Below are positions 23 to 24,208 of a stretch of DNA of 64,000 nt, piece after piece. The DNA is taken from assembly GCA_008933995.1 (NCBI GenBank), contig WARS01000007.1, positions 4,710,923 through 4,774,922 of the forward strand, given 5' to 3'. Under the pieces are notes generated by a model. The model was given only the letters and a program-made list of their open reading frames with translations. It was not told the DNA's origin and searched no databases. A program made the position numbers and the translations under genes. Each line of letters starts with the position of its first letter. Position 1 is the stretch's first letter. This stretch comes from Datnioides undecimradiatus (lineage: Eukaryota; Chordata; Actinopteri; Lobotiformes; Datnioididae).

Positions 23-316
23 CTCTGGAGTTTAGAGGACCCTCTCTCTGTTGGAGCATCATTTTTCAGGCCCCGTACTACTTCAGGGGACAGCCGATGT
101 ATCTCCTGCTCACCAACAGTAGAGTGTCCATTGGTGGGAAGATGTCCATTGGTTCGTGACTGCCCATTTGAAGAGGGGTGAAAGCCAGTACTATGGAAGG
201 AGTGGAAGGACTCCTCCAGTTCTGACCCTCCAGTGCTCTCCTGGCCAGTCTCACTAAGCTGGGAGCTGGTTTGGCTCAGGTTCCCTGATGATCCAAAGCG
301 ACTACTTTCCACTGGA
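23..316 (-). CDS. unc13b: unc13b exon, Ser-rich linker ([16 protein letters not shown])
   Basis: The 294-nt exon begins after CATTGTAG and ends at GTAGGT. It encodes [26 protein letters not shown], and an acidic/Ser/His segment ending SSKLQ(R). Human UNC13B has SSSRYGSS-NVSQGSSQLSE here. Phase 2 in, phase 2 out. It joins directly to the exon at 13209 in frame, which is the expected ubiquitous-type transcript without the giant exon. Confidence 0.9.
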
Positions 317-3300
317 CTACAATGGTAAGAGAGGAGTGAGGAAAATATTCAATGGCAGAATACTTGTTTTTGAGTCATAACTGGGTCATACCTAAGTATT
401 TTTGCAGTTTCTATTTTCTCTCTTGACAAGAATAGATAAGTGGGGATTTTTACACAGAATTGAAAGTAAAAAGTGCTTTGGAAATAGTTTCATTGTTTTT
501 ATATTATTTTAATAGTTTGGGCTGTTATAAACCCCTCTTATCTAGAAAGAATTGTGTGTAAAGGCTATTGCAACTATTTAGCAGAGATCTATTTTCATGA
601 TCAGTTGGTAAAGCTACATACACACCACATCATGTCCTAAACAATACCCAACCTTGCAGGGAGGCTGTTGCATGTTGCATGCAAATGTAAAAAAAAAAAA
701 AAATGTATCAGTGTGGTATCACGTGCACTATACACAGTGTAGGCTTTTCCTACATTAGAGATACATTTTCAAATTGAGTTGGCACACATTACAGGTATGC
801 CCTATATTGTGGTGTGCATTATGAGCTACGCTGTAACTGCTAGTTCTTAATATCTGCACACAATTACCTTTGCATATTTTATTGTTGATGTTTTCTTTTC
901 ATGGTTCACAAGACAGAACTCATGTACTATGTACAAAGGTAAACAAGATTATGGGGACGCAGGGTTAAAGTACAGATGGATGAAAATAAAATATGCAGGA
1001 TGGATTTCCTTATTTTAAATTTTATGCTTTATAAAGTGGCATTTCATAGACAAAATCATTTTCAGGGATAGAATGCACTTCAGCAACATTTGTTGTGTTG
1101 TTTAAGGTTAAATAGTAAGGATTTAAGAATTTGGATTCCTGTAAATAGATAAAAAATAATCAATACAAAATTATTTCCACAATACAAAATAATACACAAA
1201 TGACATGATAGAATTACACGTGCACACAAAATTTACATTATTTATAATGTTGCAGGCAGTCATGCCATTTGATCATTCAAATGCAATTGGCACTTTTTTT
1301 CTTTTTCTAGAAACTAATTAGTTAAGTACATTCACCGGTAAATAGTCAATTGTAGAAATGTATAAATTTTGTTTTAGAATTCTGTTTTGAAATGCCATGT
1401 AAAATTATAATAACAAAAAACACCTATAACACAGACTACACATGCACACAGACATACATAAGCTTAAATATTAAACTGAACTACTGAGCATGGATGGACT
1501 GCAGAGCTGGACAGGGAATACATTTTTTGTCAATGTCAATGCATCATAAATGGTGGGGGGAGTTGCCATTTATTATGCTTCTACTAGCCTTTTTGCATTC
1601 AATAGATCCTTCTTGAATTGGTTATCCAGCTGCACTCCAGAGGTGGGACCTGCAGAGGGGTATGTTTCTACAAGTCTTTCCTTCTCCTTTGGGGTCAGGG
1701 ATGCTGAAGGATCTATTTCAGGAGTGGAGACGCAAATCTGAGGGTTTGTGATATCATCTTTGGAACCTACCGATTCGTTTTTTTTGGCATCGGATGTTGC
1801 AACCTTTTGTACAGTATGTGTTTGACCATTAGTTGACTTGCTGTTAGCTGATGGTTGAGATGTTATAACCGGGACTGCCTGTGGCTTGGGTGGTTCTGCC
1901 TGCCAAGGAAAACTTAGTTTTGTTCCAAATAATGAAGTTGTGGGTAGCTCTTGTTTTCCAGCAACAGGTTTGTCCTCTTGAAAAAGGCCTCCAGAGAGGG
2001 TTTTTAACCCTGAAAACAGACCACTGCCTCCTTCTGTTTGAGGCATTGACAGTGTACCTGACGGAATCGTTGGTGAAAATAGGGATCCAAGAGATTTTCC
2101 TACATCACTCTGTGTTGATATAAAACCGAACAGAGACTTAGCTTGAGGTGCGTCTGTATTGTTGGGCAACTGATTAACTGCTGTAGGTTTACTAGTATGT
2201 GCTTCTTGAGGATCAGGTGGGATAGAACTGTTACTTTCTTTACTTTCAGGGTCTCCTTTAATGATCATGGGCTCCTCATGTATTATCTCTCCCTTGCCAG
2301 CTGACTTTTCTTTTTCAGTGTTATCAATCTGATGGCCAAGGTCACATGTGGTGCTTACTGAAGCACTTGTGATGGCTGATGTTTCTGGACAAGCCACCTC
2401 AGATGCCACAGCACTACTACTACTAAAGCTGCTAGATTGTTCCTGGTTGTTATCAGCTGGTAGGGTTGAGTCCACAATTTTATTTGTGCTTGTCTCACTG
2501 TCGGATGAAAATACTTTAGGTGAGATGCTCTCATTCTTAATCTGTGGCTGTGGAGTAGTGCTTGGAATTGGCCTGGGCTCAGATGGCTTAGGTGGTGGTC
2601 CCATACTCCCAAATAAAGATCCGCCTATACCCCCAAGTATTGATGCTCCAGTCTGTGGTCCCACACTCTGAGCAGATACTCCTCCAAACATTCCTCCAAG
2701 TAAAGAACCACCAGGCTGTGCTGTTGTGGCAGATCCTCCAAACATACCACCTAGTAATGATCCACTAGTCTGGGGACCTACAGACTTTGCAGTGGATCCT
2801 CCTCCAAACATCCCACCTAATATTGATCCTCCAGTGGTAGGGGCAGTGGTTTGAGGACCAGACTGAGGAGGAGACCCCTTAAATAAGCCTCCCAGTATTG
2901 ATACCCCCGTCTGGGGAGCTGCCGTCTCTGTGTTAGACCCACCAAAAATACCACCTAATAGTGATGTACCAGTCTGACTAGTGGCTGCTTGGGTTGCTGT
3001 TCCACCCAGTCCAAAAATTGAGTTTTTCTGCTGCTGTTGACCTTCAGTGGGTGCAGTAGCTGGCTTGAAAAGAGAGGACATAAAGACTGTAACTGTATCT
3101 GCTGATGAATCACTGCAAGGTTTCTCTGACTCTGGAGGCTTTTGCTGTCCCTGGAACACAGCACTTGTTGACTGAGTGTCTGGTGCTTCCTCTTGTGCTT
3201 TAGGTGGAATTGTATCCTGACTTGACTGGCCACTCACAAGCTCTGGCCTTGCAAATTGCTGTGCTTGTGCAAAGCTTTCTTTAGACTGATTGCCATTACC

Positions 3301-6300
3301 TAAAGCACTTGGCTTGTCAGCATGTTGGCAATGAGCAACTTCTATGACACTGGCATCAGTTTTGGGTGAGCTTTCCCCAGAACACTGAACTGTACAATGA
3401 GGTTGCTGTAGTTCTTTACCCTCCTCTTTGGTGTTGTTAGAACCATCCATTACAGATGTCTCAGGACCAGCAAGAGCCAGAGCCATTTCAGTATCATCAC
3501 TGGGTTTGGATGAAACAGTTACATCTGAAGTAGTGTTGGTAAGTTCTGTGACTGTCTTTTCATTATCCGATTTAGGTATAGCTGTTGGAGTGGGCGTTAT
3601 AGGTGGAACAGAGGCTTCTTGCCTTGAATGTAAACTTTTATCAGATATCTCATTGGGAGCAGAAGCTCGAGGTAAAATGCCACTGACAACAGATGCACCA
3701 GTCTGTGCAGTAACTGAAGATGAAGATGATCCCCCCAAAATACCTCCCAATATAGAGCTACTGTTTGGGGTTGTTGAAGTTTGGTTTGGAGACCCACCAA
3801 ACAACCCACCAAAGCTCCCACTAGCCTGAGGTGCTGTAGCTGGGGCTGCTGATCCTCCAAATATCCCACCCAAAATAGATCCTCCAGTCTGAGATACAGC
3901 AGCCTGGGGAGAAGCACCACCAAATAAACCTCCAAGTAAAGATGCCCCTGCCTGAGGTCCAGCTGTCTGAGAAGCAGCCTTAGTGGGACCAGCTTGAGGA
4001 CCAGTCTGAGGAACAGAACCTCCAAATAAACCACCTAATAATGATCCACCTGTTTGAGAAGCTGTTGTTTGGGGTGGAGAGCCACCAAACATTGCCCCTA
4101 ACAGAGAACTTCCAGGTTGGGCAGATGACTGAGGTGCAGAACCTCCAAACACAGAGAATAAACCTTTAGCTGGTGCATCTTTGGGTCCTGATGATCCAGG
4201 TGTGGACCCTGTGGATAAAGGACTTGCGGTGCTGGGCCCAGAAAATAATGAAAGCAGACCTTTTCCTGTACTCTCTGAAATTGATCCAGCTTGTGGTGAT
4301 GAAGTCTGTGAGCCTGTTCCACTGATCATAGACAGAAAGCCTATAGCTGGCAGTTCTTTAGACGAAGCATGATCCTGGGATGCACTATCTGTGCTTGTTT
4401 CCTTTTGCATAGAAACACATTCTGTATGTGGATCGACAGATGTATTATCAATGCCTTTAGGTGTGGCACCCTGTGTAGTGTCTACAGCAGAATTAGTGGA
4501 TGGGGTAACATCTACTTTACTTGATATTTCACTGGTAGATGCTGCCACTGGGACATGGCTACTAGTGACAGGTGACTTTTGGTAAGAACTTTCTGGTAAA
4601 GAAGTAATTGGTGGCTGATTAATAGCAGTAACAATAGCTGGTGATGAATTGTGAGTTCGTTGTGGAGATGATTCTTTAGGTGCTGCAGTCCCTGAGGAAG
4701 TGGACATACTTGTACTTCCACCAGCTCCTGGTGTTTGAGAAGTACCAGGGCCACTAAACATGGAAAACAATGATTTTCTTGGACTTTCAGTAGAGGTAGA
4801 CAAACCACCCAATATCCCTCCAAGGACAGATGATGCGGGCTGCCCTTGTCCTTGAGGTTCTGCTTGTGGTTTAGATTGTGCCTGAGGTTCCCCTTGTAGT
4901 TGAGTTTGTGACTGTGCTACTTTTTGTTGTGATGTAGATGGCTGAGGTTGTGGTGGACTGGGATCAGTAAACATTGACAAGAGTCCCTTCACTGGGCTTT
5001 CAGTTGAACTTGATGTCCCTGACAGAATTCCCCCTAGAAGTGACCCTGTTTGGGTTTGTGACTGTTGAGTGCTTGGACTACCGAACATTGAAAGGAACCC
5101 TGTATTTGGAGGGTCTTTTGGAGGAACAGTTTTCTGCTGTGGTACCTCAGTAGTAGGTTTGGTTTGAGGAGGCTGAGGAGGACTTGATCCTCCAAACATT
5201 GATATTATACTTTTTCCAAGAGATTCTTGTTGAGGAGGTTGTGGAGCGGCACTTGGTGGACATGCCTGAGCCACTGGCCCAGTACTAGCTGAAGTCTGTG
5301 GAGGATTTGACCCACTAAATATTGATAATATACTTTTACCAAGTGATTCCTCCTGTGGAGCTGTAGCTGGTGCAGGTGTTTGAGGTGCAGGCCCAGATTG
5401 GGTTGCTGTTGTTGATCCTGCCAGCATTTCTCCAATTGAGAATCCAAACAGTCCACCAGATGGTTTACTTCCTGTATCATGTTTTGTCTGTTCCATAGGT
5501 AGCATAGTTTCTGATCGCCTTGTAGCAGAGCCTGTGGAAGAATTGGGAGAAAATGTCTGGGATATACTTTTGTTTTGGGGCGGGCTCTGTGTGAGCTGAG
5601 AGGTACCACTTTGGTCCATTGTTTGTTGTCTCTGTATACCCTTAGGTCGAGATGCTGATGTCAGTGACCCCTCTGTCACACTAGGTTTCATTTGCTGTTT
5701 CTGTGGAGGGGAGGGCTCATTATTAAATAGGCTGCTGATTGATCCAAAGAGATTTGAAACTCCTGTAGCCTCTTTATTTGAAGGAACACTGCCTGGTAAG
5801 GAAGCAGTGCTGCCAGTTTTGCTCTGCTGATTAGGAGATGCCTGAGAACATTTCTGGGATTCTGGCTTTGGTTCCTCTATTCCTACTGCAGATTTTAGAA
5901 AGTTCATAAAGCCCGCCTGTGGTTGTTCAGAAGGTTTTTCCACTGGTATATGCATTGCCTTGTTAGCTGAAAGTTGTTCAGGTCCAGGTTTCCCAAGAGA
6001 GTCTTTTGATCCTAAAGGTACATTGGGCTGTGGAAGTGGGGTTGCTTGTTGTACCATGGTGGTTTGACGTGAAAGTCTTGGTTTCTGTGAAGTTGTATGT
6101 GAATGTACTGAGGGGGGAGTTACTTGAGCAGTTGTTGGTACTGTTGGCAAAATTCTGCCCTGTGTGGTAGCTGGTCTCTGCATTTGTGGCTGAGTCACAG
6201 TAGTAGTAGCTTCTTCTTTGATAATCTTTGACTTCAGACTTTGAAAACCTGATGAAAGAATGTTCTTTGAGTTTTTGTCAGGAGGTTGATCACCTGGTGA

Positions 6301-9300
6301 TATGCTAGTTTTGTTTGATTCCAACTGCGATGTTTTTCCCACAAAAGACGATATGAGGGAGGAAATCTTTTTGACTTGACGGTTAGGTTGTTCTTCTCCT
6401 GGAGACACTCTCTGCCTCCATTCCTCCTCCAGTACATCATCTATGTGCTTCACAGTAACCCCAGTGGATGATTGCCGCTGTTGGCTAGGTTGGTAACAGT
6501 TATAAAGTATCTGCTGATTCAAATTTGCAGTAGGAGTAGAGTTCAGGGAAACTGCCACTTTTTGAGCAAGAAATGTCTTCATTTCCTGATTGTTCCAATA
6601 AGGGCCAATGTGGTCTGTGGTATTATGACAAGAAAGGTCAATAATATCTTCTTCATACATGTAACTGGGCTGTCCGGGATCCATCCTTACTTTGTTTAAT
6701 CTGTAAGATGTGAAATCTACACCTTGTTGCCCTTGTGACAAAAATGAATTTTCAAACATTTGAGAGAACTGCTCAAGATTTAAATTCATGATCTGATTTC
6801 CTTTTCTATAGGCAGCAGACAAATCTAGGGGGGCATTAAGAAGTTGAGAATCACAGTGATCTTGACCAGGTAGCCAAAGAAGTTCATCCTCATTGTAAAG
6901 AGGAATTTTAAAGCCACAAACACAAACCATTTCATTGTGTAGCCACGCACTGGGAAAGCTATCTATTTTTTCAGCATGTTCCCATGACTCGGCCTCGGGG
7001 GCACATGCATACACGTATTCACCAGCTGCATCTGTAAGCAAGGCATAAATATATTCATGATCTGTATAAACAAAGTAGCCACAATCGCCATCTTCTGCTG
7101 GCCACCACATTCCTTGCTCCAAAAGTGTAAGCCACTGCTGATACCATTCAGTGTCCTCCAGGTACAAAGAGTCATCTATCTCATTTCTGGCACTTGAAGG
7201 ATAGTTTGAATCTACTGGCCTATTCAAATTAAATTGACTCTGATGTATGATGCCATCAGTATGAAAATTTTGTGGGACTGCATCATTGATACCATATTGC
7301 CAGTTAGCTGAATAGGACAAGCTTGGTGCGGTCTCCTCGTAATAGCCCTCATGATATGAAACCCCATTCAAGCTGTAAGTACTGCCATTATTGAAAGAGT
7401 GCCATTTCCCGAACTTTGCATTACCCTGTTTAGTAGTCAAGTTCAACGCGCCCTCCTCATTTGATGAATATTCTGTGTTTCCCAAGTTTTCATAACTGTT
7501 CCACAATTTCCTCTTAGAATATGGATCATCATTCATGTGTCCCTGCAATTGACATGTTCCAATTTGCTCTTGGTGACAAACACCTTGCCATGGTATAGAA
7601 GAGTTACATGGCTGATATATATCTGAAGTGCTGTAGCAAATAGAGGATCTCTGTAATGATGCACCATCCCAACTCTGTCTATGCACTTGGTCCTCTCCCT
7701 GGAATTGATTATTTAGTGACTCATTCTGAAATTGCTGCCACAGTGCACTTTCACGGATCCATTGGTTTTCATCATAAGAGGGACTGATACAATAAGGAGA
7801 TGACTGACCATGGTAAAGATTTTGCCTTGAAGTGCCATACAAAGAGGAATTATTTCCTCCAATAAATGGCTGTGTGGTCATTCCTGAAGAAGCTGAATGA
7901 CTTTGTAAAAGTGAATGAATATTTCCTGTACTATAAGCCATTGGGTCGTCTGATTGAAGTGAGTGGGAATAATATAACTGAGATAGATTACCTGTGCTAA
8001 TTGAAGAGTATGTTGCTTGACTCTGAAGAGATCTTGCAAAAGTAGCTGAAGTTCGTAAGTCTAAACTTTCAGTGTCAATTGAGGCTGGTGCTCTGATTAA
8101 AGTGTGTCTGCTCTGTCCTGGATAGGGAGAACCTGAAACAGCTGTTTGACAATTGTCCCGTCCAAAGTCTGAGGAAGCACTTTTAAAAATGCTCATAGGT
8201 AACTCTGTTAACTTAGTTGAGGGTGCCTGTTGTTCTGTATTCTGACCCGAGGTTTCTACTTTCTTTGGACTAGAGGGGTCCTCAGTTACATTTTTACTAA
8301 ACAGTGCAGATAAAAACCCTTGCTGGGCCGTTCGTGGAAACCTCTTCTCTTTCTCTGCATATTCTTGGGAGGATTGTTGTATTACATTAGTGTGTAGCTG
8401 TGTTTGCAATGGAGTCTTTGTTGTGACTGTAAAATTATTGTCCATCTGATTCGGTGATTGCCCAGTTGATGCCTGGCAGGATGTGTCAGTATTTTCAGAT
8501 GATTTTGTTATTTTGGTAAACAACCCTGAGAACACTCCAGATTGACTCACTGTCTCCTGATGTGTTTCAGCAGTCTTACCGCTTGGCACTTTGGTGTACT
8601 GTGTCTCATGGATGATTTTTGGCTGCTGTTGAGACATATTTTCTGATGAAGGTTTGAACAGTCCAGAGAACAGACCACTTGCTTGAGTAGTTTTTTGTGG
8701 TGAACTATTTTGTGGTTCATCTTTGTTGGAAACCGTGCTACTCTGTGCTCTTGTTTGTTCACGGCTGGATTTACTTGAGGTAATTTTGTTCTGTTGAGCT
8801 GATGGGTGCTGCTGTGTGTTTATGTTGTCTGCTGAAGCAAATTTAAAAAGACCAGATAAAAGACCACCTTTTTGGGATGGTGGTTGCTGGAGTGGAACAG
8901 TCTGTTGTCTAGTAAAGCCTGGTTTACTTGTTTCCTGTTGGGGAACTTGCTGACTTGATGCTCTATTCCTGAGATGAGGCCCTCTGTTTGGACTTTGATA
9001 ATTTTGTTGACTGATATTATCTTGATTATGTTGAACATTACTTTGTTGGTGCTGAACTGTTTGACTGCTTGTAATTTTCTCAGATGAAGCAAATTTAAGC
9101 AAGCCAGACAGAAGCCCCTTTTGATGAGGTTCTGTTTGAGTATCATTTGAAACTTGCTGCTGACCCAAGTAATTTCCAGGCATGTTTCTACGTTTTTCAG
9201 CATCACAGGGCTGTGTGTTTTGTGTTATATTTTCTGTTGACGAAAATTTCAATAGCCCTGAAAGACCCCTAATCTGTGGAGTTGAAAAATGATGTTGTGG

Positions 9301-12300
9301 TGGAGAGTGATGAGAAGACTGTGATGGATCACTGCTCCTGGGTGGTTGAGTGGTATGGGAAGTCTGCTGAGACAAATCACCAGATAGGTCACTTGTAGAG
9401 CCAAATTTAAGAAGTCCAGATAGGAGTCCTCCTTGTTTTGATTGATTAGAGCTCATATGAGAGTTGTCCTCGTTCGGACTCCCTTTAAAAAGTCCTGTCA
9501 AAAAACTGTGGGATTCAGACTGACTGGGAGCTTGATGCTGCATTCCATGATAAAGTGCTGTTGGTTCCTGATTTGATATATGTTGTGTACATGAGCCAGA
9601 GAGCACTTCACTGTTCTGAGATTGCTGATAACTGGTAAAACTCTGGTTTGAACCAGAGGGAGCAGACGATGGGTTAAATATGCTGGAAAACCATCCTTTC
9701 TCTGAGTTTTCCTGCAGCACAGCTGAATTCTGTGTCAAAGTGGTTGAGGCTGTTGAACATGAATTATGATGTGAATGAGTAGGTTTCTGTGTGTTTATGG
9801 AAGTACTAACATCTTCACGGGATGCAAACTTTAAAAAACCAGAGAACATGCCACTCTCTGCTTTGGGACATTGCTGACTGGAAACATTTTCAGAGGAGAG
9901 GGATGGCAGTTTAAGCTTACTACTCAATGATGGGTCCTCCACTGGCTTCTCTACTTGGGGTTCCTCTGTGGTTCGAAACACTGGATAAACTGCCACTGGT
10001 GGGGCTCCCTGAGGTGGAATGGGGACAACAGGTGTGATCAGTGAACTTAGCGACTTCTTCAAAGGGCTAAAGAATCCAGTGTTTGTTGACTGTGTTTGGC
10101 CAATTGGCTTTGCTGGCTCTTGAACAGCCACATTTTCTTGTTTGTAAATCATTTGATTCTGTCTGATGTATACATTTTGATCTTGTTTGTGTCCCAAATA
10201 TTTCTCTTGTGACGGACTTAGTAATTTTTCTGATTTCCTACCTACTTGTCCTGTCATGACTTGTTTACCGTGACAAACATCTTTCTCATCCCATTGTTTG
10301 CAGCCTTGAGAATATGTGGACTCTGGTGGCTGTTTGTACTCAGTGGAGTTCCCATTATCTCCTGCTGAAAAAATCTTCAGAGGATTCAATTTCCCAAAGA
10401 CTGAGTTTCCTGGTGTACTTTGAGGTTTGTTTAAGAACTCAGGTGCATATTCTTTTGTGCTTGTTTGATTCTGAATCCTTGTGGGTTTTGTTTCTTGATT
10501 ATGACTTTGTGTCTTGGCATCACGTGGTGGCTGAATTGGCCAAGAACTGAATGTTTTTTCAGGAGAATTTTCTACTGGAGAAACAACAGCTACAGGAGTT
10601 GAATTATTTGATTTAGGAATAAAGGACAGCAGTTTTGTTAGTCCAGATTGTGGGGGTTGTGTAGACTGTGCTTGGGAAGACTGGACAGGCTGTCTGGGGC
10701 CTCCTCCAACTCTGTCAGTGAGAGAACTAAGTAATGAGCTCATGGCATATTTTACTCCTGAAATGCTCTGGTCAGAGGGAGTGTGTGATTGGTTTTCTCC
10801 TTGAGGATCCTTCAGTGCACTACTTTGGTCTTCTCCAAAAGAATCAGTTCTATTGCTCCCCTGAGATGATAGCCTGGATTTACTAGATTTAGGAAGAGAA
10901 CCGTACTTGCTAATTTCTTCTTCTTTTTCAGCAAGGTATTCAGAAACTGTTTCAACTAGACACTGGAGTTCATCCATAGGGTCTACATATTCATCACTAG
11001 GTTCCTCTACAGGGGAGAGCATTGCCTCCGTAGCCCATCCTCCAATTTTAGCTTTTCCACACTTCTTCTCTCGAGAACCCTGAGCAGTTTCTCCCTCATA
11101 GGGGAAAGGATACCTTTCTTTGTAATGCCTTGTGTTGTCCTGGTTATAGTCTTGTGCTAAAAAGGCAATGTCATCAACATCCTCCTCTACTCCTATGGAG
11201 TACTGCAGATCCTCAGAGCTCTCAAAATCGAAATCAAATCGTGCTCTCATTCTAGCAACTTGCTCTTTTTTGTATGCCACATAATTCTCCAAAGTGGTGT
11301 CCAGCTCATTTTTAGCCCACATCCTTGTCTTGTAGAGAAGCCCATTCTTGTATGGCCTAAGGCATGATGTCAAACGCTCCTCCTCTTCCTGCATCTCTGC
11401 TACCTGACGCATAAACAGTTCTCCTCTCTTCTCACGGAGCAGTGCAAGGTCAGAGGGAAAAGCATCTTCTCTCATTTGGTCTGCCTCCGATCTGTGCAAC
11501 CCCCCTGGGTCCCTTATCTTTTTTTTTCGCCGCCGATCAATAGTGTCATAGCCCTCAGGGTAGGTGGCAGGCAGAAAACAACTGTATTGAGTATTTTGAT
11601 GGATAGTTGCATGTGACAGCTCAGGGTAGGGCCTTCCCATTCGAAGGATAATGTTGTCTTCCTCATCATCTAAGAAGTCACTTAACTGTGATTTGCCCTG
11701 CCCTCTGTATTTATTTTCCCAATCTTCAACCCCCATGCCAGAATCTATGGGTATAATTCTGACCCTTCCTTTCTGGTTTAATGATCTAGTTTAGGTGAAA
11801 GGATATATTTAACAAAAGGATGAAAAGGGAAACAGGGACAGAAAAGAAGAAGCAAACAAACATGAAGAAAAAATGCAACACAAATTAAGAAGTAAGATAA
11901 ATGAAGAAATTAAGATGAGAAGAGATTCATGCAAACATGAAGACACAATTAGTCTCTTTAGCTTAGTAATGACTGTTATAACTGTGAACAGGTTACAAAG
12001 CTAAATACACTGTTGCCCATAAAGTTGGAATAATTTTGTTTGCAGACACATTCCTGTATTTATTCCTATTTATACACATCAGTAATCACTTTTAACCAGG
12101 TGCTATGATGAGTTTTGAGAAGATATACACTTTATCTATCAAGAATAAATCTCATTGTCACAATCATTTCATAAGAAGAGTAAAAAAATATTTTATTCCA
12201 ACTTTATGGGCAACTGTATATTTATACCACTTTGAACTGATCTTGTAAGATTTAAGGACAGCTTTACAGTTTCATTAAAAATCCCAGACACAGTAAAAAC

Positions 12301-15300
12301 AAATTATCAGAAAAATACCCTGTTAGACAGTATACGGTGTGCATGGCTAATAAAAATGTGTGTGTGCACCCTGCATGTCCCTATGTTTGCACATCTGTGT
12401 TAATGTAGCTCTTTGAAAATCCCTACTGCAACAGTCAAGCTTATCAGCACTTCAATACACAGCCTGCATCAGTGTTCATGAGAAATGCATTCTAAATTAC
12501 CACCATATGGTGAACACTGAACAACTTTTTAATCACCACAGAAATGAGTGTGTATGTCACTGACCCATTCCTGCCATGTGTGACAGAGGGATTTCCTCAA
12601 TGATATGGCTAAGCCAAGTTCAGACTCTTTCAAAGTATCGGGGAACTTTAAACCAACACGACAGACCCTAAGGACATGAGGAAATATGAACAATAAACAT
12701 TCCCTGGCTGAAATTCCACATTTTCTGAAGCAGAATTATCCGGATCAACTCCCTATCAGTCAACACAGGCAGATTTGCAGCAGTCTCCCCTGTGAACATG
12801 TATTCCATGACAATCCAAGATTCCATGCACTGAAACCATTTGTCTTATGGACCAAAACTGGCCTCAAATCAGCTGTGTATTGGTAGTTATAATAATACTA
12901 TGATTAATAATAACAACATCAACATCACATTATTATTGTTTTACTTGTAGTTTTATGGTCTTTCCTTTTAATATATTATGTATTATTTCAATGCAAATGG
13001 TCACCCCACACACATTTTGACCAATTTACTACTGAAGCAGCAGAATTAACAACATGAACATGAAGTTATTATTTTTGCTTAGAGTGCATCTGCTCCTTTT
13101 AGTGAAGTCTCTGCAATATATCTCACCTTCTAAAATGTGTGAATGTGTGCAAAGGTTTCATATAGAGTGACTGAGCAGGTGAGGATATGTATGTGTGACT
13201 CTGTCTACCTGTTCTGGCTCTGGTCCCTGTAGTCCAGGTCAAAACTGTGGACAGAGTCTGTGCAGGAGTCTGGGTGGTGATGCTGCTGCCGGGGCCCCAT
13301 GGGGTATTGGTGCATGGAGGAGTTTGGCTGAGCTGTTGTGTGGTAACGTGGAGGCAAGCTGTTGCTCGTCTCACTGCGGTAGTCACTATCCCGGTCATCT
13401 ACAGCGCTGTCCTGGTCATCCAGAGCTGCAAGAGGTGAATGGAATGAATGAATGAAAAATTAATCTTTCCTGAAATATTCATGTTTTCATGTTACAGCAA
13501 GCTCATGATCAACCCATGAGAATGCATTTTAGTTAGGATTTTGCCTATTCTTACTGCTGAAGAAATAAAGCAGCAGATGCCAGGTTAATAGGGAGGTTGA
13601 AAGGGGAAAAGTCATGCACTTTGAAAGACTTTACAACCTGATACATGCAACCTCTCTTGCTAAATGAAAGACACTGAGGTGCTCTTAATTCATGTCATCT
13701 GTGTTATCTCGCAAACACTGTTTTCATCACTGCATAAAGTAATACAGAATTTATGGAAACAGCTGCATTTGTTCATTATTTAATACTTTCTTGTTTTGCT
13801 GCAAGAAAGCTGGGGACAAAGGTTGCACAGCATAATGCAGTTAAATTCAGAGTTACATCAACATGGCTTAAAAGAAGCAGACTTATATGAAACACGTTTT
13901 CAAAGTGCCATTGCCAGACAAGTAATGACCCTTGAAAGCAGCAAACTTCTTTCAAGAGCTAACCATGAGTTTGGTGCATGCTACAGGGGACAGCTGGGGG
14001 GGCGACGACACACAAACCGATTCCACTGATATCTCAGTGTGAAGTGGGAGGACAACGAGACATGGTGACAAGGTGACATTAGAATTTAGTTTAGCAAAGA
14101 CTGCCACCCATCAGTTTTTTGCTGGAACTGCAATGTGTACTATAAGATTTACTGTCCTATTCTGTGGCGTACAAATAAATTTAAAAATATAACACGTCTG
14201 AAAACATTTATATGGGTATTATTAGTTACATTGCAACACAACTGGTCCAGATATTATGACTGGCATCAGATATAGCCTTCCTGAAAATTGTGTGGTGTAC
14301 TATTTCAAAGGAAAAAGAAAAATCATGTCTGATCTCACATCTGACACTTTTCTCAAATTTATGCAAAACCAGCACTTAATGGGTGATGAATATCATATGG
14401 AACATGGAAAATAGGAAAACAGCGGGAGCAGAAAAGTAAAAAAGCCAAAGGGAATTAAGGAAAACTTTGAGGAAAAACAATTTAGTAAAATAATGGGAAT
14501 AAAATGAATGGAAGCATTATAGATTACGTGTTATTTGGGAATATGGGGCATTAGGACATGCAGAAGGCACTGAGGATTGGCCAGGGGGAGAATATCATCA
14601 AAGTGAGTTTTTTGTTTTTTTTTACATACTCAGTGGGTCAGCCCATCCGAAATAGTTGCCTGGTGAAAGTGCAGATGTTACAAGTGAGAGGTACAGTCAC
14701 AGGAGGCAGGGGGTTGTGAAAAGAAAAAAAAAAAAAACAGTCTCTGTGTTTTAATAGCGGGAGGATTCGGGAACCCCATCATTGGTTTTCAGAGTGGAAA
14801 ACAGACAAACAGACTGTCAAAGCAATAACAATATTTAATCATCAAAATTAGGTTTATGAAAACATTAACTGATTGAATTTGAAATGTAGAGTCTTCATTT
14901 TTCGACTCTGATTAAAGGGGATTTAACTGTTTGTTTGTCCTTAATGTTAGGCAGTAGAACAAGGTTAAGGAAGTGAGAGGAAATAATATCAAAGCCTGTT
15001 AGAAGAGTGGAGAGTTGGCTCCATCTAGAGGCCGAGAGCGGACTCACAGCACTGGGAAGCCGCAAACGGCAGTGGTTGACTCTGAACGTCATCCTGAAGA
15101 GGGTACTGCAAGAGGAGAGAGAGCACAGCAGGCATCAAGGCATCAAGTGTGTTTTCCATGTCGTCATGTTGTTATTATTACTGTGGTAAAATATAGCAGT
15201 TCTGCGTGATCTGCACAAGAGGTACGAACAGGCTCTTTATTTAGAAGACAAATAGGTGATGAAACCTCTCCTAACTGTGAAACGCTTACATTAAAACAAG

Positions 15301-18300
15301 CAGGACAAACAGTGTGTTTATCATTAAAACACACTGATGCACTGTTATTTCATCAGGCAAATAAAAGCTGTGCAAATCCTCTTAAACTGAACTTTACCTC
15401 ATCATCGATTCCCATGGTATTGATGCGCTCTAGCTTGCCTGTCCAGTACTGAGCCTCATCATCTGGGATATCTGGTAATATGGGCACAAGAACAACAACA
15501 AAATGTGATGTCATCATAATGCATTCATGCCTGATAAATTTCTCATGAGCTTGTTCGGAATGAGGAAATGAAAATAGTTAGTTAGCAAGGGCCACAAACT
15601 GTTAAGGGACCAAATACAACAGGAACATTTTTCAAAGCACCAGAGATCTTCAGATGAGTCATGACAGTAATGTACCAAAGAGTTTTTCAGAGTTAGTACA
15701 AGTTAAAGGTTTGAGCACAAATCAAAAATGACTGACACACAGAGCCAACAGCCAGAAAAAAAAATTTAAACCAAGGAATAGTTAAATGGCGCGCAATGCC
15801 ACATTCATCAGATTATAGCACAACTGGCGTGTACCTCTTCATTAAAAAAATAATCAGAATGAACAGCACTGAAGGCTAAAAGATGTTTATTCACTCCTTT
15901 CCCGACTGGCTTCTCCAAGAGTTTGACTGACCAACTGCCTGTGCTGAAGACATTTAAATTTTTTATTTATATTAATCTAAAAACACAGTTAAAACTAAGT
16001 GAAGTAATGTTTTATACATTAAATTGTTTGTGAATGACGTACTTATCTTAGTGTTTTTGAGTGTACAGTGCTGCAAAGCGTTACATTTCCTCCAGTTTCT
16101 TATCTTTCTCTCACTCACTGGAACGTGAAAATGCTTTTCATTTTTTGCTGTGTTGGGTACAGATTAGCGGTCGAGCTAATCCAGGCACATTTACATTGAT
16201 TTTGTGACTGTCAGCGTGAGCCACAAAATAAATGAAATTAAACCTGAAATTTAAAAAAAAAAAAAAGGATCAAAACCATGATCGACGACAGTATTTTTAT
16301 GCTCTCCACCCTGCCTACATAATATATCTGAAAACAAACATTTTCCACTCTACCTTCTGCTCTGCTCTACGCATGTCTGTGTCTGTGTGTGTGTGTGCTT
16401 GTATGTGTGTGGAGCAGCTAAGCCCCACCCTCAGTCATGCACAAAGAGCCGAAGAGAGGCACAGACATGACCGTAAACTGCAAAATGCAAAATAGATTAT
16501 TTTTGTTTATGTTATTTACTTATTTCATACCTGTTGATCTTTACAAATCAGTCTGAATCTGATTTTTCTTTTAATGTTTACAGTATCAGATCGGGTGCTC
16601 TCACCGTTCCCACTTTCCATGGGGATTTGTGCTCGTCTGTAGACAGATGCACATTAAAAGGCCACATACACAAAGGGCTTCAAAGACACGCCGACCCACA
16701 GCTTTAATGAATGGCTCTGGTGGCGCACGGAGTCATGATGGCTTCCTGCAACCTTGAAAGGTCTCCTCTTTAAACAGAGAAAGGGGCTCTCTTTCCCACT
16801 CAGTGGACAGACACACTGCTTTTAACTTTGCCTTTTGATCACAGGACTTCATGTCCTATATGCAGTGCCTGCAGTAGAGATGCTGTAGGTAGAACTGCAG
16901 GAGGAGAACAGAGAACATTTAACCTCCTGATCCTGAAAAGAACCGAGTTATCCCCTGAGAAAAATATTATATTAAATGCATTAGCTGAACTCATTTGACT
17001 ATGTTAAAGGTATGGTTCTGGTGTTTTGAGGTGTGTGTGGGGAAGACTCATAAAGAAGATCATTAAACTCTGTAATGCTTTCTAATTTATTGTTTTGGTG
17101 CTGGCAGCACATTTAATAAAACATTTTGGTCTTAATAATATCATGGCTAACAGCAGGCTGTTGAACATGTAGCAGCTAATGATAGATCACAAGTTGATGA
17201 AGACCAAACAAGAGTCGAGGGAGAGTGATTATTGGACTTCCTTTAACCAGGTGGATTAATGATTGCTAATGTTACAACTCTGTATGGCAATAATATGTCC
17301 AGGTTATTTATCTGTTAGCTTTTTGTGGACTTCCTCTGCATGCAGGCTGCCAGAACCACCCTGCCCCTCCAATAAATACATAAATATATAAATAAAACAA
17401 TCAATGCAGCTCTAATTAAATGCATATGAAAATGTTGCTGTGGATGATTCCAGAAAACAGTGAGTAAGTGGCTAATGGAACTAAAATCACAGCCATACTT
17501 TCTTCTTTCTCATGTTAGCAATATATGTAAAAGCATTCTTAATGCTTCCTTAATCCTGTTGGCCACAATGGAACCACCTGGCAAAGGCTAAATTATATTT
17601 ACCGAACCTAAGTTAATAAAGGAGGATCTGCCACTGATGAGTCACTGCCCTCAATCAGAACAGAAACTCTTCATCCTCAGTGGAACCAGACAGAGGGCAG
17701 AAAAAGGTATATCTACGACGACAATCTGAAAGAGTCCCATTTCTAGCCATAAGTTGTTCAATATAAGTGTCCTTTATGTTGGAGATAATGTTATGTATTT
17801 CTGTATAAACATGACCTCATACTTTACTCAAGTCCCTATATTTTCTGTTTCAGTTGAGATGATGGATCAGTGCAAGTTGTGCTTGCGTAACACTTCAGGA
17901 GAAGAAGTCACCATCCTCATCCCCCAGGCTGGACGCTTTTTCCCCCCCGTTTAGTCTCAGAAACAGACTGCTGACATTTCAGCAGGCAATGTGTGGCCTT
18001 TTGTTAGCTCAATGGATCATGGTTCGATTTGACCCAAGGTAACCAGAATCACTAATGTACTCTCAACATCGCTGTAGTCAGAGCAGACACTTGCTTTGAA
18101 AAGTATTGCGTAATCTCCACCTGAACTTTTCAAACGATGGGTTTTCATTGCCCCATTGTGCAGATAAATTACAAAGCGACTCAGAAACAGGGGACTAAAT
18201 GCTCTGATGTCTCACCAAATGGCAGCTCAAAGCGAGTGTCCAACAGGACTCGATGGGGTGTTGGGTTCTTGGTGCCATATATCTCGTCCGCCTTCATCAG

Positions 18301-21300
18301 GACCTCTGCATCCAGAAAGATCCAGTCCCCTGAGCCCTCCTGCAATTAGATATGTACGTTTAGGTTTATCTTGGTGGACAACTGCACCTTCTTTATATCT
18401 GTTCTAATGCATATTTCAGGTCATTAGTCCATAACAGAATATGTAAACATAGTAGGTATAGGTAATCTTACTAATAAGGCAGCAAAACTGATTGCATTTC
18501 TACACCGATTATCCGTGAAGTTCCACTGGGTCTGGATATTTAAACACATGTGCTTGTATGTTTTTTCTGGACTATATAACGTGTGTGAGTGCACATTTCA
18601 ACCTCCTCCGATTGTTGGATACTCTTTAAAGGAATCCAAGCCGTCCCCACCATGGTGTCCCAGATGAGGCCTTTGTTCCACACCTCGACAATGAGGCCGA
18701 GGTCCAGCCGGTTGATCTCACTAAGGAAAACGGGGATTTGACAGGTATCAAGCAATGTTACGCTTTAATTAAAACAAACAACCAAACAAACTTCCTGATA
18801 AACAGTGTGGGAACTGTCAGTGGATAAAAGAGAAATACAATGACCGTAGTTTGATCCTTGTAATCTCTTTTAAAAAAAAGAAAAACATAGAGGGGTCTTG
18901 TATGTCATTCGATTCACACTCAGTGAACCAGAAATTTGTACATAATTACTGCCTGAGCGGGCCCTACCACTGGCTGATAACAAAGGCTACTTCCTCTTTT
19001 TGTTGTGTATTAGCCGTCATAATCCATTCCAGCCGCGCTTTGTCATTCAACGCACTATTCAAATGGGCTCAAAAACAGCTTGATGACAGCAGTAAAATGG
19101 CATATCAAATTTGAAAGGGGCCGCATGACGAGAACATTTGCATATTCTCATCTGTGGCAGTTTGCGACTATCAACGGGCCAAACAAAAGGAAGATGAGAG
19201 AAAAGATAATCAAAGAGAACAGCTAATTGAGAGAAGTGCAGGGGAGGGCGATGGGGATCCAGGGTGTCCAGGTGCAGAGACGCAGGATTTCTAAACCATG
19301 GGCTTGTTTTTGTAATGGCAAAAAATAAATCAATCCAGAAAGTGAAAGACCAACCTGTTTGTGATGTTTAGAATGCTTTTTAAAGTCTTTTATCCAAGTA
19401 AGTAGATTTTATATGGGAGAAATGCATCATCAATAATGTATTGTGACTTCTATTTATAACACTAATAAAATGATTAAACTCTGAATTCACATTTGTGCAA
19501 CTAACTGTCTGTAATCAATTTACAAATGTCAACCTGCTAAGCATTTATCTTAAAATGATGTGGTGTGTCACCCACCGATCATTTGTCATTTCCACATCAC
19601 TTTAAAACCAATTTAAGCAATTCGACAGCATTGAGTTTAATTACAGCGTCCCATTTTAGCACAAACCAACACAAGCTATTCCAGGGCTGAAGCAACAAGG
19701 TGCATTTGTCTAAAAGTATAATGTTTGCACCAAATTTATGGTCTCTGAAATCCTTCAAAGATTGTAACGGTGGATATAAGGTCATCACAAATACGCATTA
19801 CATAACATATACTTGGTTACTTCGCCTCTGTCTCTGTGGTGAATATGAAGCAGCAGCTGGTTAGCTTAGATTAGCACAGAGACCTCAACTGGGGGGGGGT
19901 CTTTTTGGTACACACACATGCGCCCACACACAAATCCCACAACTTGTGTTTTTTACACTTTTTAAAAGCACAGAGTAGAGTAAATATTTGAGATATGCCA
20001 AAATAAATTTGTGAGATTAAGTGGCGCTGGACACAACCAGATGAGCTGTTTTGACCTCATTCCAGTCTTTGTGCAAAGCTGTACTAACTGCCGGCTTGGG
20101 TAAACTTAATATTTACCATTAGGACATAGAGTGATTTCAATATTTTCATTTATTGCTCAGTGAGAAATCACATATGCATATATTCCAGAGTGTCAAAACT
20201 AAATCTGCTTAAATAACTGAAAGATCAGGCGCAGAAACTGAGGTTCACACTTTGGAAATTTCCATCAATTAGATTTCACCTGTGCTGTGTCATCATCTCT
20301 GAGACTTTAATGAACACTATTCTGTTGCAACAGGTGTTGCTGAGCGTTTGCTGGGAACCCAGATGAGCGATGATGTTTTATGCTGAATAAGACCAAGCCA
20401 ACACATCATTAATGGACAGTAGAAGGATGAGGGTCTGGAAAAACAAACACTGTTGCAATGAGGGAGTTCACAAAAGACAAACAATGACACACATGCAACA
20501 ACGCTCTGCCTCTCTCGTCGCCATAGATACCTTTCACGGGGAAAGTAAAATGAGGAAATTAAACCAATGAATTAAACGGAGGAAATGAACAGCAGCTGTT
20601 TATCCCAATACTTTCCTAGAGTTGCATGGCTTGGAAAACCATTTTTTCTCCTGCATAGTGCTCAGCACTAGGTAGAAACCAGGGTGAGGAAACAAAGAAA
20701 CTAATAAAACTAATATTAAACAACAAATAATGTAGCTCATATTGGGTATCAGAGCTTGTGGTCCCCTTGTTTGGCTATTTGCCTTTACTGAAGAGTTTTG
20801 CACAGGGTGACAGTTGTTGGACAGTGCTGACACACTGTATGTATCTGTAATGATGCACCCTGTGCTGCTTCTTGGTAAAATGGAAGCAGGTCTTGTGAAG
20901 TGCACTAAACAAAGCAGAGCAATTTGACTAAATACCTAAAATGTGTTTCCAGTGAGGCTGCAGCTATAGACCAGTATACATCAATATGAAAATGAATGGT
21001 TATCATACATGCGTGTATATTTCCTAATTCTGAATTCTATCATATTAATGATATGGTATTAATGATATGATATAATGATATGGTATTAATGTTAAATATC
21101 ATTCTACTATTTCAATATTATTAAAAAGAGTGTTGGACAATGCTCAGTCAAATTATGATAAAGAATTTGGCTGACCAATTAATTTGGTGATGGTTTTTAT
21201 TTCCATTCAACTGTAATGTGCGGTGTTTGCCCCTAATTGTATGGTGTGCCCTTTGAGGTCTGTGTAACATTTGCTTAGTCTACCATGAATTTTACTTATA

Positions 21301-24208
21301 TTAAAGTAATAATTAAAGTACTTTAGGTAATGAAAATGTAAGTAGGTCAGTAACTTGCACTGTGGCTGTATTTAGTAACTTACAACATAAAATCCTGTTC
21401 CCAGCAAGGCTGGTCCCCCCGCACGGTGATAGTTGTGCTTTTGACATTCTGCACCTTCAGTGTCACGTAGGTGTTGAACTTGTCTGTAAGAAGGACAAAG
21501 TGAGATCGCAGTTGAGGTGGTAGCAGTACAGTGATAGCATATAGAAGGGGTGTGTCAGAGAATTATGTATGACTATTACAAAAAGTATTGGGAGTAAAAT
21601 GAGCAGCAGGAAAGATGCACATTATTGGTATAGTGTTAACATATATGCAACAAGCTGCAGTGTCACATAACAGACACAATTCAGCAGGTGCTACAAAACG
21701 AAACTCTGCAAACAAACAGGCAGCTGATCACATGTTCGAACCGACACAAGTAATACTAACCAGGTCAGGTCTATGTTGGCTTTGTGTGGGTGAAAAAGAC
21801 ATCAGGAGCTATAGTGAGAGTGAAAGTAGATAAGTCCCCCCCCCACCGTGTCAAGCCGAGCCGAGCCAAGCCAAGCCAAGCCAGGCCAGGCCGGCAAACT
21901 GATCCCGTTAATCCCCAAAGAGAGACAGCCCCAAGCAGCAGACACAAGCACAGGATCCAACTGTCTGTTGATTTTCCTGCACTGTGACTTACAGCTTCTC
22001 TTCGTAATTGCCCTCTAAATATACAGTAGAGAGAGGGAGCACATCTGCTGATGATGTAACAGAGTCACTCCTGACCCATTATTACAGCAGAAAAGGTCTC
22101 TGTCAGCCCTGATACCATCAAGTTATGTCAAAGGTGAAGAGAGCCGTTGCAAACACTGTGAGCAACAAACCAAGTCAAATTACGACAGACGGCCATTTTT
22201 GTAGTAAATAATCACTGAGTGGAATGCGGCAGTTAAGATGTGGATTCAGTCTGTGGGGACAACTTTCACACCCAGCCATGTCTGGCAACCTCCTTTCAGC
22301 CAGTAGTGCAGCAGAGTCACCGCCATGGTCTGCACCAGCTGTCAGTGCTGGGCGGGGGTGATCAGGGTTGGAGGGTGGATTAGACGGCTCGTAACACAAC
22401 TCCCAGTTTTCATTTCCAGCAGTAGGGTGGCACGTGTCTGCTGATGCGCTCAGTGTCGCGCTGGTAGTTGCCAGCCCTGCACCGCTGGTGGTCCTGTCAG
22501 CAATTTGGGTGCAAGAGCAGCTGGAGGACAGGTTTAGACTGAAATGTCGGTCTTTAGTGTGGGCTTTATGACTGACTGGGATAGACAATGTGGTTCCCAT
22601 CAGACGTGACTCCATATTATATGCTATATGAGTTGGGAAATTCAATTGTGAAACTGTAGGATGAAATAACCAGATGGAGGTGCCTGTTTTTGGATGACAG
22701 ACTAAGACACTGTGGCAAATTGATAAAGTACTACTCACTAATTTGAATCATGGCCTAAAAGGTCCACCGGTATTGAAGTGAAAATTTGAGGTCTTTGTTG
22801 TTCCAAACCCCAAAATATTCAGCTTCCTATGACATGAAACAATGAGGAGTAGTAAATTCTCACACGTAAAATAATTAACTAATAGAAATATAAAAATAAA
22901 ATAATAGCACGATATATAAATTAGTTGCATGCATTTATCTTTAAATTTCTGCATAAAATATTGTAAATTGTGTCAGTATTTTACAAATATGTATTTATGC
23001 CAATGCTGTTCCTGAGGGCAAACCAGCAGGTGTTGATCCCCATGCATGCACATACAGTAAAGTGTAGTATTCACACTCACACACACACACAGTTTGGGCT
23101 GTGGGAAATAAAAGCAAGGCATCAGCTGCCCCTTGCAGACTGATCACCTGACCACACTAAACAAAGATTTTCCTGGTTACCCCAGCGACATATTGAAACA
23201 TTTACTCTGCACATAGCCACTAACAGCAGCCAGATAAGTAAACTCTTGACACAATGAGACAACAAACAGTTGATACAGCTGACACACAACATAAATAACG
23301 ATTAAATTAGGCCGCAAAAGCAAAAGGCCGGACTGAGAGCAGTCCAGTGACACTCCCGCACCGCCGATGACCCGACCCTGAAAGCACTGTCCATCCTCCC
23401 AGTAGCATGAGTGAAAGGACACAGACCTAATTACTGTCTCGAGAGGACAGTAGCAACAAAACACAGGCATTATTACCAAGGAGCCTGGGGGACGCTCAAG
23501 CCTTTCCCTAATTAGATAGTCCATGCCTTGTGCCACGTTTGGGCCGGCTCCCATGAATAGAAGAGATGAGATAAGGGAAGAGGATGTATGGATTAGATAA
23601 GAGCCACTTAGTGGCTGTGGGCCCTTTACAGCAGGTGCTGTCCGCTATATGGTTGATACAATCTGCGCTGTTGAGGAGCAAGCAGCAATAACTGCCTGGA
23701 ATATACCTGCACACTAATGCCTGACCAATACTGGGCTCATCAGGACAAAACCAATATTGACTATTTTCCCACCTATAATATGAACAATAGAACCAGAAAA
23801 TGTGTCTGGCAATGATCCCTAAAGGGCAGTCCTCTAAGGGTTGCACAGGTCATATTGACAACAATGATAGTGACAGTTAATATTAAATAATATTTACTTT
23901 ATAAACTTATGGTATTATAAAATTACAACTATAAAAGCATATATAACCATCCACATGTGTTACATTACAGTCAAATATACTGTAAATGACAGCTAGCTGA
24001 TAAATAAGCCAGGCTGACTTGATATAAGCTTATTGCTCCATTGTGTCTCCATTGCATTTATTTCTTGCTGTTTACATCTACAAATAACTGTTTTCTTTTA
24101 TTTATTGTTTTTTATTCTCTTCTACTGTAAATTGAAATACTTGTATGTGTCCATTGGGTGTAACATGAAAGAGCTAAAACATACATGTCATGCAGTGCAC
24201 ACAACCAC

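Follow-up and report, generated by a model that had tools for sequence, protein, structure and literature searches.

A stretch of 64,000 nucleotides from the fish Datnioides undecimradiatus (contig WARS01000007.1, positions 4,710,923 to 4,774,922; hereafter the window) carries on its minus strand a part of unc13b, the gene of the presynaptic priming protein Munc13-2. Nine exons on the C2A side of the gene (E1 to E9) are followed by a single open frame of more than 10 kb and then by E10, the normal exon after E9. The frame probably belongs to a giant internal exon spliced between E9 and E10, and a duplicate of it lies elsewhere in the same genome. The features are collected in Table 1.

The unc13b locus and its giant open frame

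The giant frame is open from stop to stop over 3,405 codons (1573..11790), far beyond chance: in 300 sequences generated from a dinucleotide model of the same stretch, in-frame stops numbered 158 on average and the longest open run did not exceed 258 codons. E1 to E9 (34817 to 13209) are separated by GT-AG introns, are all in phase and encode 257 residues. Joined to the giant frame up to its stop they give 3,661 codons without a stop (3,651 codons, likewise open, without E8), which confirms the observation of a preliminary description of this DNA that a giant frame continues in phase from nine C2A-side exons. E9 also joins E10 directly, in phase 2 as it does the giant exon; since E10 lies within the window and this join is in phase, the giant exon appears to be optional or alternative. 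It lies in an intron of an otherwise ordinary gene, from whose upstream exons it differs in composition: third-position G+C is 0.31 in the giant exon and 0.30 in its duplicate, against 0.66 in E1 to E9 and 0.42 and 0.38 in two brain-type frames described below.

The product of the nine exons matches the C2A domain of Munc13-1 in the PDB (phmmer; 2cjs, E 3.5e-72; 2cjt, E 7.9e-62), and the E10 product is 73.9% identical over 23 residues to the same stretch of Munc13-1 (tblastn, approximate probe). To the left of the window, the same contig carries C1 and C2B exons (tblastn, approximate probe), one MUN exon (PDB 3swh, E 4.3e-11) and an exon which we take for the calmodulin-binding region. By these matches the window gene holds C2A, C1, C2B and MUN exons. 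With a C2A-type start, C1, C2B and MUN in the same gene, and a grouping with Munc13-2 over Munc13-1 (see below), the earlier assignment to unc13b, with a real giant open frame in phase downstream of C2A, is upheld. Two observations concern the small exons: the donor of E4 (GAG/GTTGAA, 18597-18605, minus strand; here and below a slash marks the cut) scores -4.5 and is very weak within an otherwise ordinary C2A exon, and the microexon E8 resembles the NYFGW of Munc13-1 (approximate probe).

The duplicate gene and the probable limits of the giant exon

Searches were made in the source genome (581 Mb; scores were given to the best candidates only). Three parts of the giant exon, its head, middle and tail, were matched at one other place each at E <=0.001, in all cases on contig C328 and inside a frame of 5,357 codons. 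The exon order at that locus is the same as in the window gene: C2A exons, E9, giant exon, E10, calmodulin-type exon and C1. The giant frame is thus conserved in a duplicate gene of the same fish, the only relative that was compared. Between the two inserts, blastp gave three main places of similarity, 3-706 (30.6%, 7e-52), 1304-1736 (32.5%, 5e-67) and 3219-3311 (48.5%, 3e-15), plus two weaker pairings around the first of two motif arrays; outside the three blocks the copies hardly align. In head, middle and tail, pN was 0.42, 0.44 and 0.30 and pS 0.73, 0.81 and 0.69, values to be read with the blocks having been chosen via protein similarity, which favours low pN, and with silent sites at or near saturation, which gives no firm dN/dS. 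Identity in the blocks was 0.51-0.67 at first, 0.62-0.78 at second and 0.33-0.37 at third codon positions. As judged from these values, what has been kept between the copies is the protein and not the DNA.

At the start of the exon, homology to the duplicate begins directly after the AG acceptor of the window copy, and the acceptor of the duplicate, tttttttcttgattccag, is rich in pyrimidines and sits at the same codon. Both acceptors are in the phase of E9, and the insert proteins are alike from the acceptor onward, including the residues ahead of the first Met; this similarity upstream of the first Met counts against a first exon that would start there.

At the 3′ end, the nine bases before and the seven after a proposed GC donor, AAAAAG/GCTAGTA, are identical in both copies, after which the sequences diverge. 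After the codon that the cut divides, four codons remain to the stop in the window frame and 16 in that of the duplicate; the copies share no more of these than the two that GCTAGTA covers. With a cut at the GC donor, each copy exits in phase 2, in which the E10 of its gene is entered, and the length of each exon is divisible by three. Among the phase-2 GT sites downstream of position 2306, none scores higher than -2.6. The GC donor is weak and non-canonical, yet we are fairly confident that the giant exon ends there (at 1589) and not at 1573. Given the shared AAAAAG/GCTAGTA, the later divergence and the phase fit to E10, inclusion of the exon most likely yields a full-length Munc13-2. The product first proposed, C2A plus insert and stopping at 1573, does not fit a duplicate that keeps the donor sequence, continues into unrelated sequence and stops elsewhere, nor the phase that suits E10 in both genes.

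An E9 search of the genome found four loci, namely the window gene, its duplicate on C328 and two on contigs C312 and C476. The latter two group with UNC13A at 100% bootstrap, apart from the two giant-exon genes, in unrooted trees with approximate outside rows (the five-row tree used 329 of 490 columns). The N-terminal tree places ubMunc13-2 between the two groups and outside the two giant-exon genes, so that this pair fits a duplication in the fish lineage, which we infer to be the teleost genome duplication. Stretches of 60 kb at each unc13a-like locus, read on the gene strand, hold no giant exon; their longest frames (281 codons on C312 and 397 on C476) are the E10-like exons, about 3 kb and 1.5 kb after E9. 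Within this genome, and at the sensitivity of these searches, the giant exon thus appears as a feature of unc13b.

Both genes also hold a separate large frame downstream (765 codons in the window gene, 965 in the duplicate). The two frames have in common a stretch of 59 residues with 73% identity (EHILKELxGINKIQEEIS...), which we take to correspond to a part of Munc13-3, and they are natural candidates for first exons of the bMunc13-2 type. Against the two giant exons, the candidate of the window gene had no blastp match at E 1.

Table 1. Features of the window gene and of its duplicate (positions are those of the window unless a contig is given)
Feature	Position	Strand	Remarks
E1	34796..34817	-	start codon, MSLLCVR
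E2	27088..27117	-	C2A
E3	21384..21483	-	C2A
E4	18603..18720	-	C2A; weak donor
E5	18216..18339	-	C2A
E6	15398..15471	-	
E7	15048..15105	-	
E8	14630..14659	-	30-nt microexon NYFGWADPL between E7 and E9, skippable in frame
E9	13209..13425	-	ends in phase 2; four such exons in genome
AG acceptor of giant exon	11786..11787	-	ctaaactag/ATC
Giant exon (proposed)	1589..11785	-	10,197 nt = 3 x 3,399, symmetric phase 2-2; from open frame, boundary scoring and homologous exon in duplicate
Head	10885..11784	-	about 300 residues, conserved in duplicate
Array 1	8299..9849	-	short hydrophobic motifs, LLSGLLKF type
Middle domain	6580..7179	-	about 200 residues, Trp/Tyr/Cys-rich; PLDLS at 6831-6817
RILPTVP	6136..6156	-	R.LP..P motif, RIM-BP SH3-like
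Array 2	2686..5334	-	short hydrophobic motifs, GLLSMF and LLGGLFGG types
Tail block	1852..2130	-	48.5% identical to duplicate
Proposed GC donor	1587..1588	-	AAAAAG/GCTAGTA; same in duplicate (9 exonic + 7 intronic bases)
Rival 3′ end	1569..1575	-	TAA stop (1573-1575) and overlapping AATAAA (1569-1574); hexamer without counterpart here in duplicate
E10	23..316	-	normal exon after E9; phase 2 entry
Candidate bMunc13-2-type first exon, window gene	G000:C464:4704518-4706812		765 codons; left of window, downstream of E10
Duplicate giant exon (proposed)	G000:C328:15608038-15623967		15,930 nt, 5,310 codons; phase 2-2 between E9 and E10
Candidate bMunc13-2-type first exon, duplicate	G000:C328:15654943-15657837		965 codons

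Elsewhere in the window, a frame of 713 codons on the plus strand (45312-47453) has no match in Pfam or the PDB at E 0.001; it appears to resemble PIGO, a neighbour of human UNC13B.

Contents of the insert

The insert begins with a conserved head and contains two arrays of short hydrophobic motifs on either side of a middle domain, followed by a conserved tail block. The middle domain is 50% identical to the duplicate across the aligned block and, in our judgement, looks like a folded domain; its structure, predicted from one sequence, reached a pLDDT of 34 and was not used. The description of the insert as largely disordered holds in part: order-promoting residues (W, C, F, I, Y, V, L) are few, making up 20.8% of the window copy and 21.8% of the duplicate by composition only, and the part that does not stand is this conserved Trp/Tyr/Cys-rich block of about 200 residues.

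The window copy has 21 motifs of class 1 and the duplicate 17 (shuffled means 0.12 and 0.09), and each has eight of class 2 (shuffled means 0.05-0.12 over both classes), although these patterns were drawn after viewing the sequence and the counts describe rather than test. Before the middle domain, array 1 is much alike in both copies and holds eight class-1 motifs in the window and 15 in the duplicate. In array 2, the duplicate carries mostly the GLFSMF type, with only two class-1 motifs, and the LLGGLFGG type has expanded in the window copy. When array 1 was searched against the genome (seven candidates scored), only the window came back, a weak test since the array of the duplicate itself was missed. 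In the duplicate, a long stretch that separates the middle domain from array 2 lacks a clear counterpart in the window copy and contains four copies of APAN[ST][IV][KR]..LDM[ST].

A scan for 13 short patterns, with p values uncorrected, pointed to two putative docking motifs. R.LP..P, which we take to be the RIM-BP SH3 consensus, was found once in the window copy (shuffled mean 0.03, p 0.027) and twice in the duplicate (mean 0.07, 0 of 300 shuffles), and in each copy one such motif sits 110-140 residues beyond the end of the middle blastp block. PLDLS/PLDLT, presumably a CtBP-type motif, lies within the conserved middle domain of both copies; its count in the window copy is within chance (1 vs 0.13, p 0.12), with p 0.02 in the duplicate, and relaxed CtBP-type motifs number 18 vs 1.4 in the duplicate and 2 vs 0.6 in the window copy. 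Nine of the 13 patterns (R.LP.P, R..P..P, two LC8 forms, class II SH3, PPxY, NPF, DPW/DPF and 14-3-3) gave no excess at p 0.05 in either copy.

Pfam returned no family for the giant frame at E <=10 and none for two stretches of the duplicate. The Pfam family T6SS_HCP, obtained for one of two members of the middle domain (E 0.036), and two PDB matches of the giant frame (E 1.7 and 8.8) were taken as chance, and a PDB search with a profile of the middle domain gave no match. In bacterial, archaeal, viral and plasmid collections, none of 19 contig pattern matches and none of four viral ones encodes a relative, and tblastn against plasmids, for which 1,830 of 3,405 residues served as query, found nothing; collections of this kind have no bearing on other fish.

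Alternative explanations, possible role and known systems

Several points weigh against a giant internal exon between E9 and E10, which is known here from genomic sequence alone, in addition to the dependence on a single relative, the poor alignment outside the blocks and the limits of the substitution and motif statistics given above. GC donors are rare, and with a simple matrix (all splice-site matrices were approximate) the proposed one comes ninth among 427 scanned GC sites and is outscored by another site in phase 2. The acceptor scores -1.1, the lowest of ten scored, and ranks 19th among the 88 AGs of the stretch scanned. An AATAAA lies 14 bases past the GC donor in the window copy, with more poly(A)-type hexamers at +705 and +1075, and such hexamers also occur in the duplicate, the first at +571 past the donor. 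These signals would suit a terminal exon with a 3′ UTR, in which E9 is spliced to the giant exon, translation ends at the TAA at 1573 and the poly(A) site lies either at the stop or a few hundred bases farther on. Its product would be a disordered protein that is anchored by C2A, lacks MUN and might act as decoy or scaffold. That the frame stays open to 1573, where two tandem TAA codons overlap the hexamer, and that no good in-phase GT donor exists near the end are consistent with such an exon. On the other hand, homology to the duplicate ends at AAAAAG/GCTAGTA, the hexamer that overlaps the stop is missing at this place in the duplicate, and the giant exon of either gene has the length and phase that suit E10; together these points make a terminal exon unlikely.

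The weak acceptor would be explained if the exon were instead an alternative first exon, with a promoter in the intron between E9 and the giant exon and translation from Met 19 of the frame on to E10; the product would be bMunc13-2-like, longer and without C2A. The protein similarity that extends upstream of Met 19 to the acceptor in both copies, the position of both acceptors at the same codon and in the phase of E9, and the candidate brain-type first exons found elsewhere in both genes argue against this, and it is regarded as improbable. Finally, a functionless long open frame or a decayed repeat could account for the third-position G+C unlike that of the upstream exons and for the long stretches that hardly align between copies, but such a relic would hardly leave 3,405 codons open where chance reaches 258 at most (300 trials), keep both copies open, or conserve blocks at codon positions 1 and 2 and not 3; it can be set aside almost entirely. 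The structure C2A exons, giant internal exon, E10 is thus the one that we consider probable.

Because the acceptor is weak and the GC donor weak and non-canonical, inclusion of the internal exon would probably be regulated, likely in neurons or sensory cells. When included, it would add a flexible insert of 3,399 codons (5,310 in the duplicate) to the C2A-C1-C2B-MUN protein, making a Munc13-2 about 5,000 residues long (257 + 3,399 + the rest, with C1-C2B-MUN). An ordinary Munc13-2 form has about 1,600 residues. The exon, if used, would therefore roughly triple the size of the protein, and gene models without it would miss about two thirds of it.

On top of this structure, the insert may work as a long multivalent tether or scaffold, a possibility that we hold tentatively. 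The C2A end would bind RIM (PMC5436228) and C1-C2B-MUN would bridge vesicle and plasma membrane (PMC8762327); an insert between the two ends would act as a tether that lets MUN act far from its C2A anchor and that gathers the priming machinery at active zones of a specialised kind. RIM-BP via R.LP..P and CtBP1/RIBEYE via PLDLS are putative docking partners. Since recruitment of Munc13 into condensates has been reported for Liprin-alpha3 (PMC8144191), it is plausible that arrays of stickers in Munc13-2 itself act in condensation. The position of Munc13 relative to calcium channels shapes release, as reviewed for fly Unc13 (PMC8762327), and an isoform whose RIM-binding anchor is separated from the priming module by thousands of flexible residues would be a direct way to alter reach or clustering. 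More doubtful than the tether itself is the wider proposal of a third class, a giant Munc13-2 of fish, in which a full priming protein would carry a multivalent insert of 3,400-5,300 residues (stickers, a conserved domain without known relative, RIM-BP and CtBP1/RIBEYE docking), form long-reach tethers or condensates at specialised (e.g., ribbon) active zones, and have been kept in both duplicates since before their split.

Recent mammalian annotation may include very long UNC13B products, although this is uncertain. If it is correct, the exon may predate fish and already be in databases, and the news would lie in its anatomy, its boundary and its duplicate. No description of a giant unc13b exon was found in the literature searched, which consisted of short result lists with most subscription journals outside reach. 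The accessible part of PMC7038749 holds no mention of UNC13, that of PMC1794582 names UNC13B only in a gene list, and those of PMC11802453 and PMC13343711 name it only for expression or among TDP-43-related genes.

Among known forms, ubMunc13-2 (UNC13B, C2A form) shares with the window gene the C2A exons, E9, E10 and the downstream C1-C2B-MUN, being of the same gene, but in its described form it goes from E9 directly to E10, whereas here a 10.2-kb exon lies between them. Munc13-2 has been described with two major splice variants (PMC8866005). The brain form, bMunc13-2, whose N-terminus binds ELKS1 (PMC5830537), is alike in that the same gene supplies it with a large N-terminal region by alternative use. 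It differs in that it is described as being without C2A in the accessible part of PMC5436228, and its candidate exons here are separate and lie downstream of E10. The giant exon was accordingly rejected as the brain exon of bMunc13-2: it joins the C2A exons in phase and precedes E10, and the other frames fit the description of bMunc13-2, the only basis of this comparison, better. Drosophila Unc13A, likened by description, also has a long N-terminal extension, in which a proline motif binds the RIM-BP SH3, but the fly protein has no C2A according to the accessible part of the same review (PMC8762327).

The arrays recall the GLFG/FG-repeat nucleoporins in that, within a Ser/Gln/Thr-rich stretch, FGG occurs 12 and 8 times in the two copies (1.2 expected) and FG 24 and 22 times (9.8 and 11.6 expected). 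They differ from them in their main motif, LLSGLL/LLGGLF, and in having no Pfam match; with four GLFG and 24 FG in 3,398 residues of the window copy, and four and 22 in 5,309 of the duplicate, FG/GLFG repeats of the nucleoporin type were rejected.

The closest precedent is found in ankyrin-G and ankyrin-B (ANK3/ANK2), where a single giant optional exon of a neuronal gene enlarges an ordinary protein. The giant exon of ankyrin-G measures 7.8 kb (PMC5422562), ankyrin giant exons are included in neurons (PMC12713133) and their origin has been treated (PMC5135030). More generally, longer internal exons are reported to encode disordered, repeat-rich protein more often (PMC12457776, PMC9825244). Both unc13b exons, of 10,197 and 15,930 nt, are likewise single internal exons of several kb, in frame, of symmetric phase and skippable, provided that the GC donor is used. 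The gene is a different one and the likeness is one of description, with inclusion here predicted from the genome. With coding lengths of 10.2 and 15.9 kb and, apparently, a GC donor each, the two internal exons would provide material for studying how such exons are defined, and at the presynapse the giant unc13b exon would be the counterpart of that of the ankyrins.

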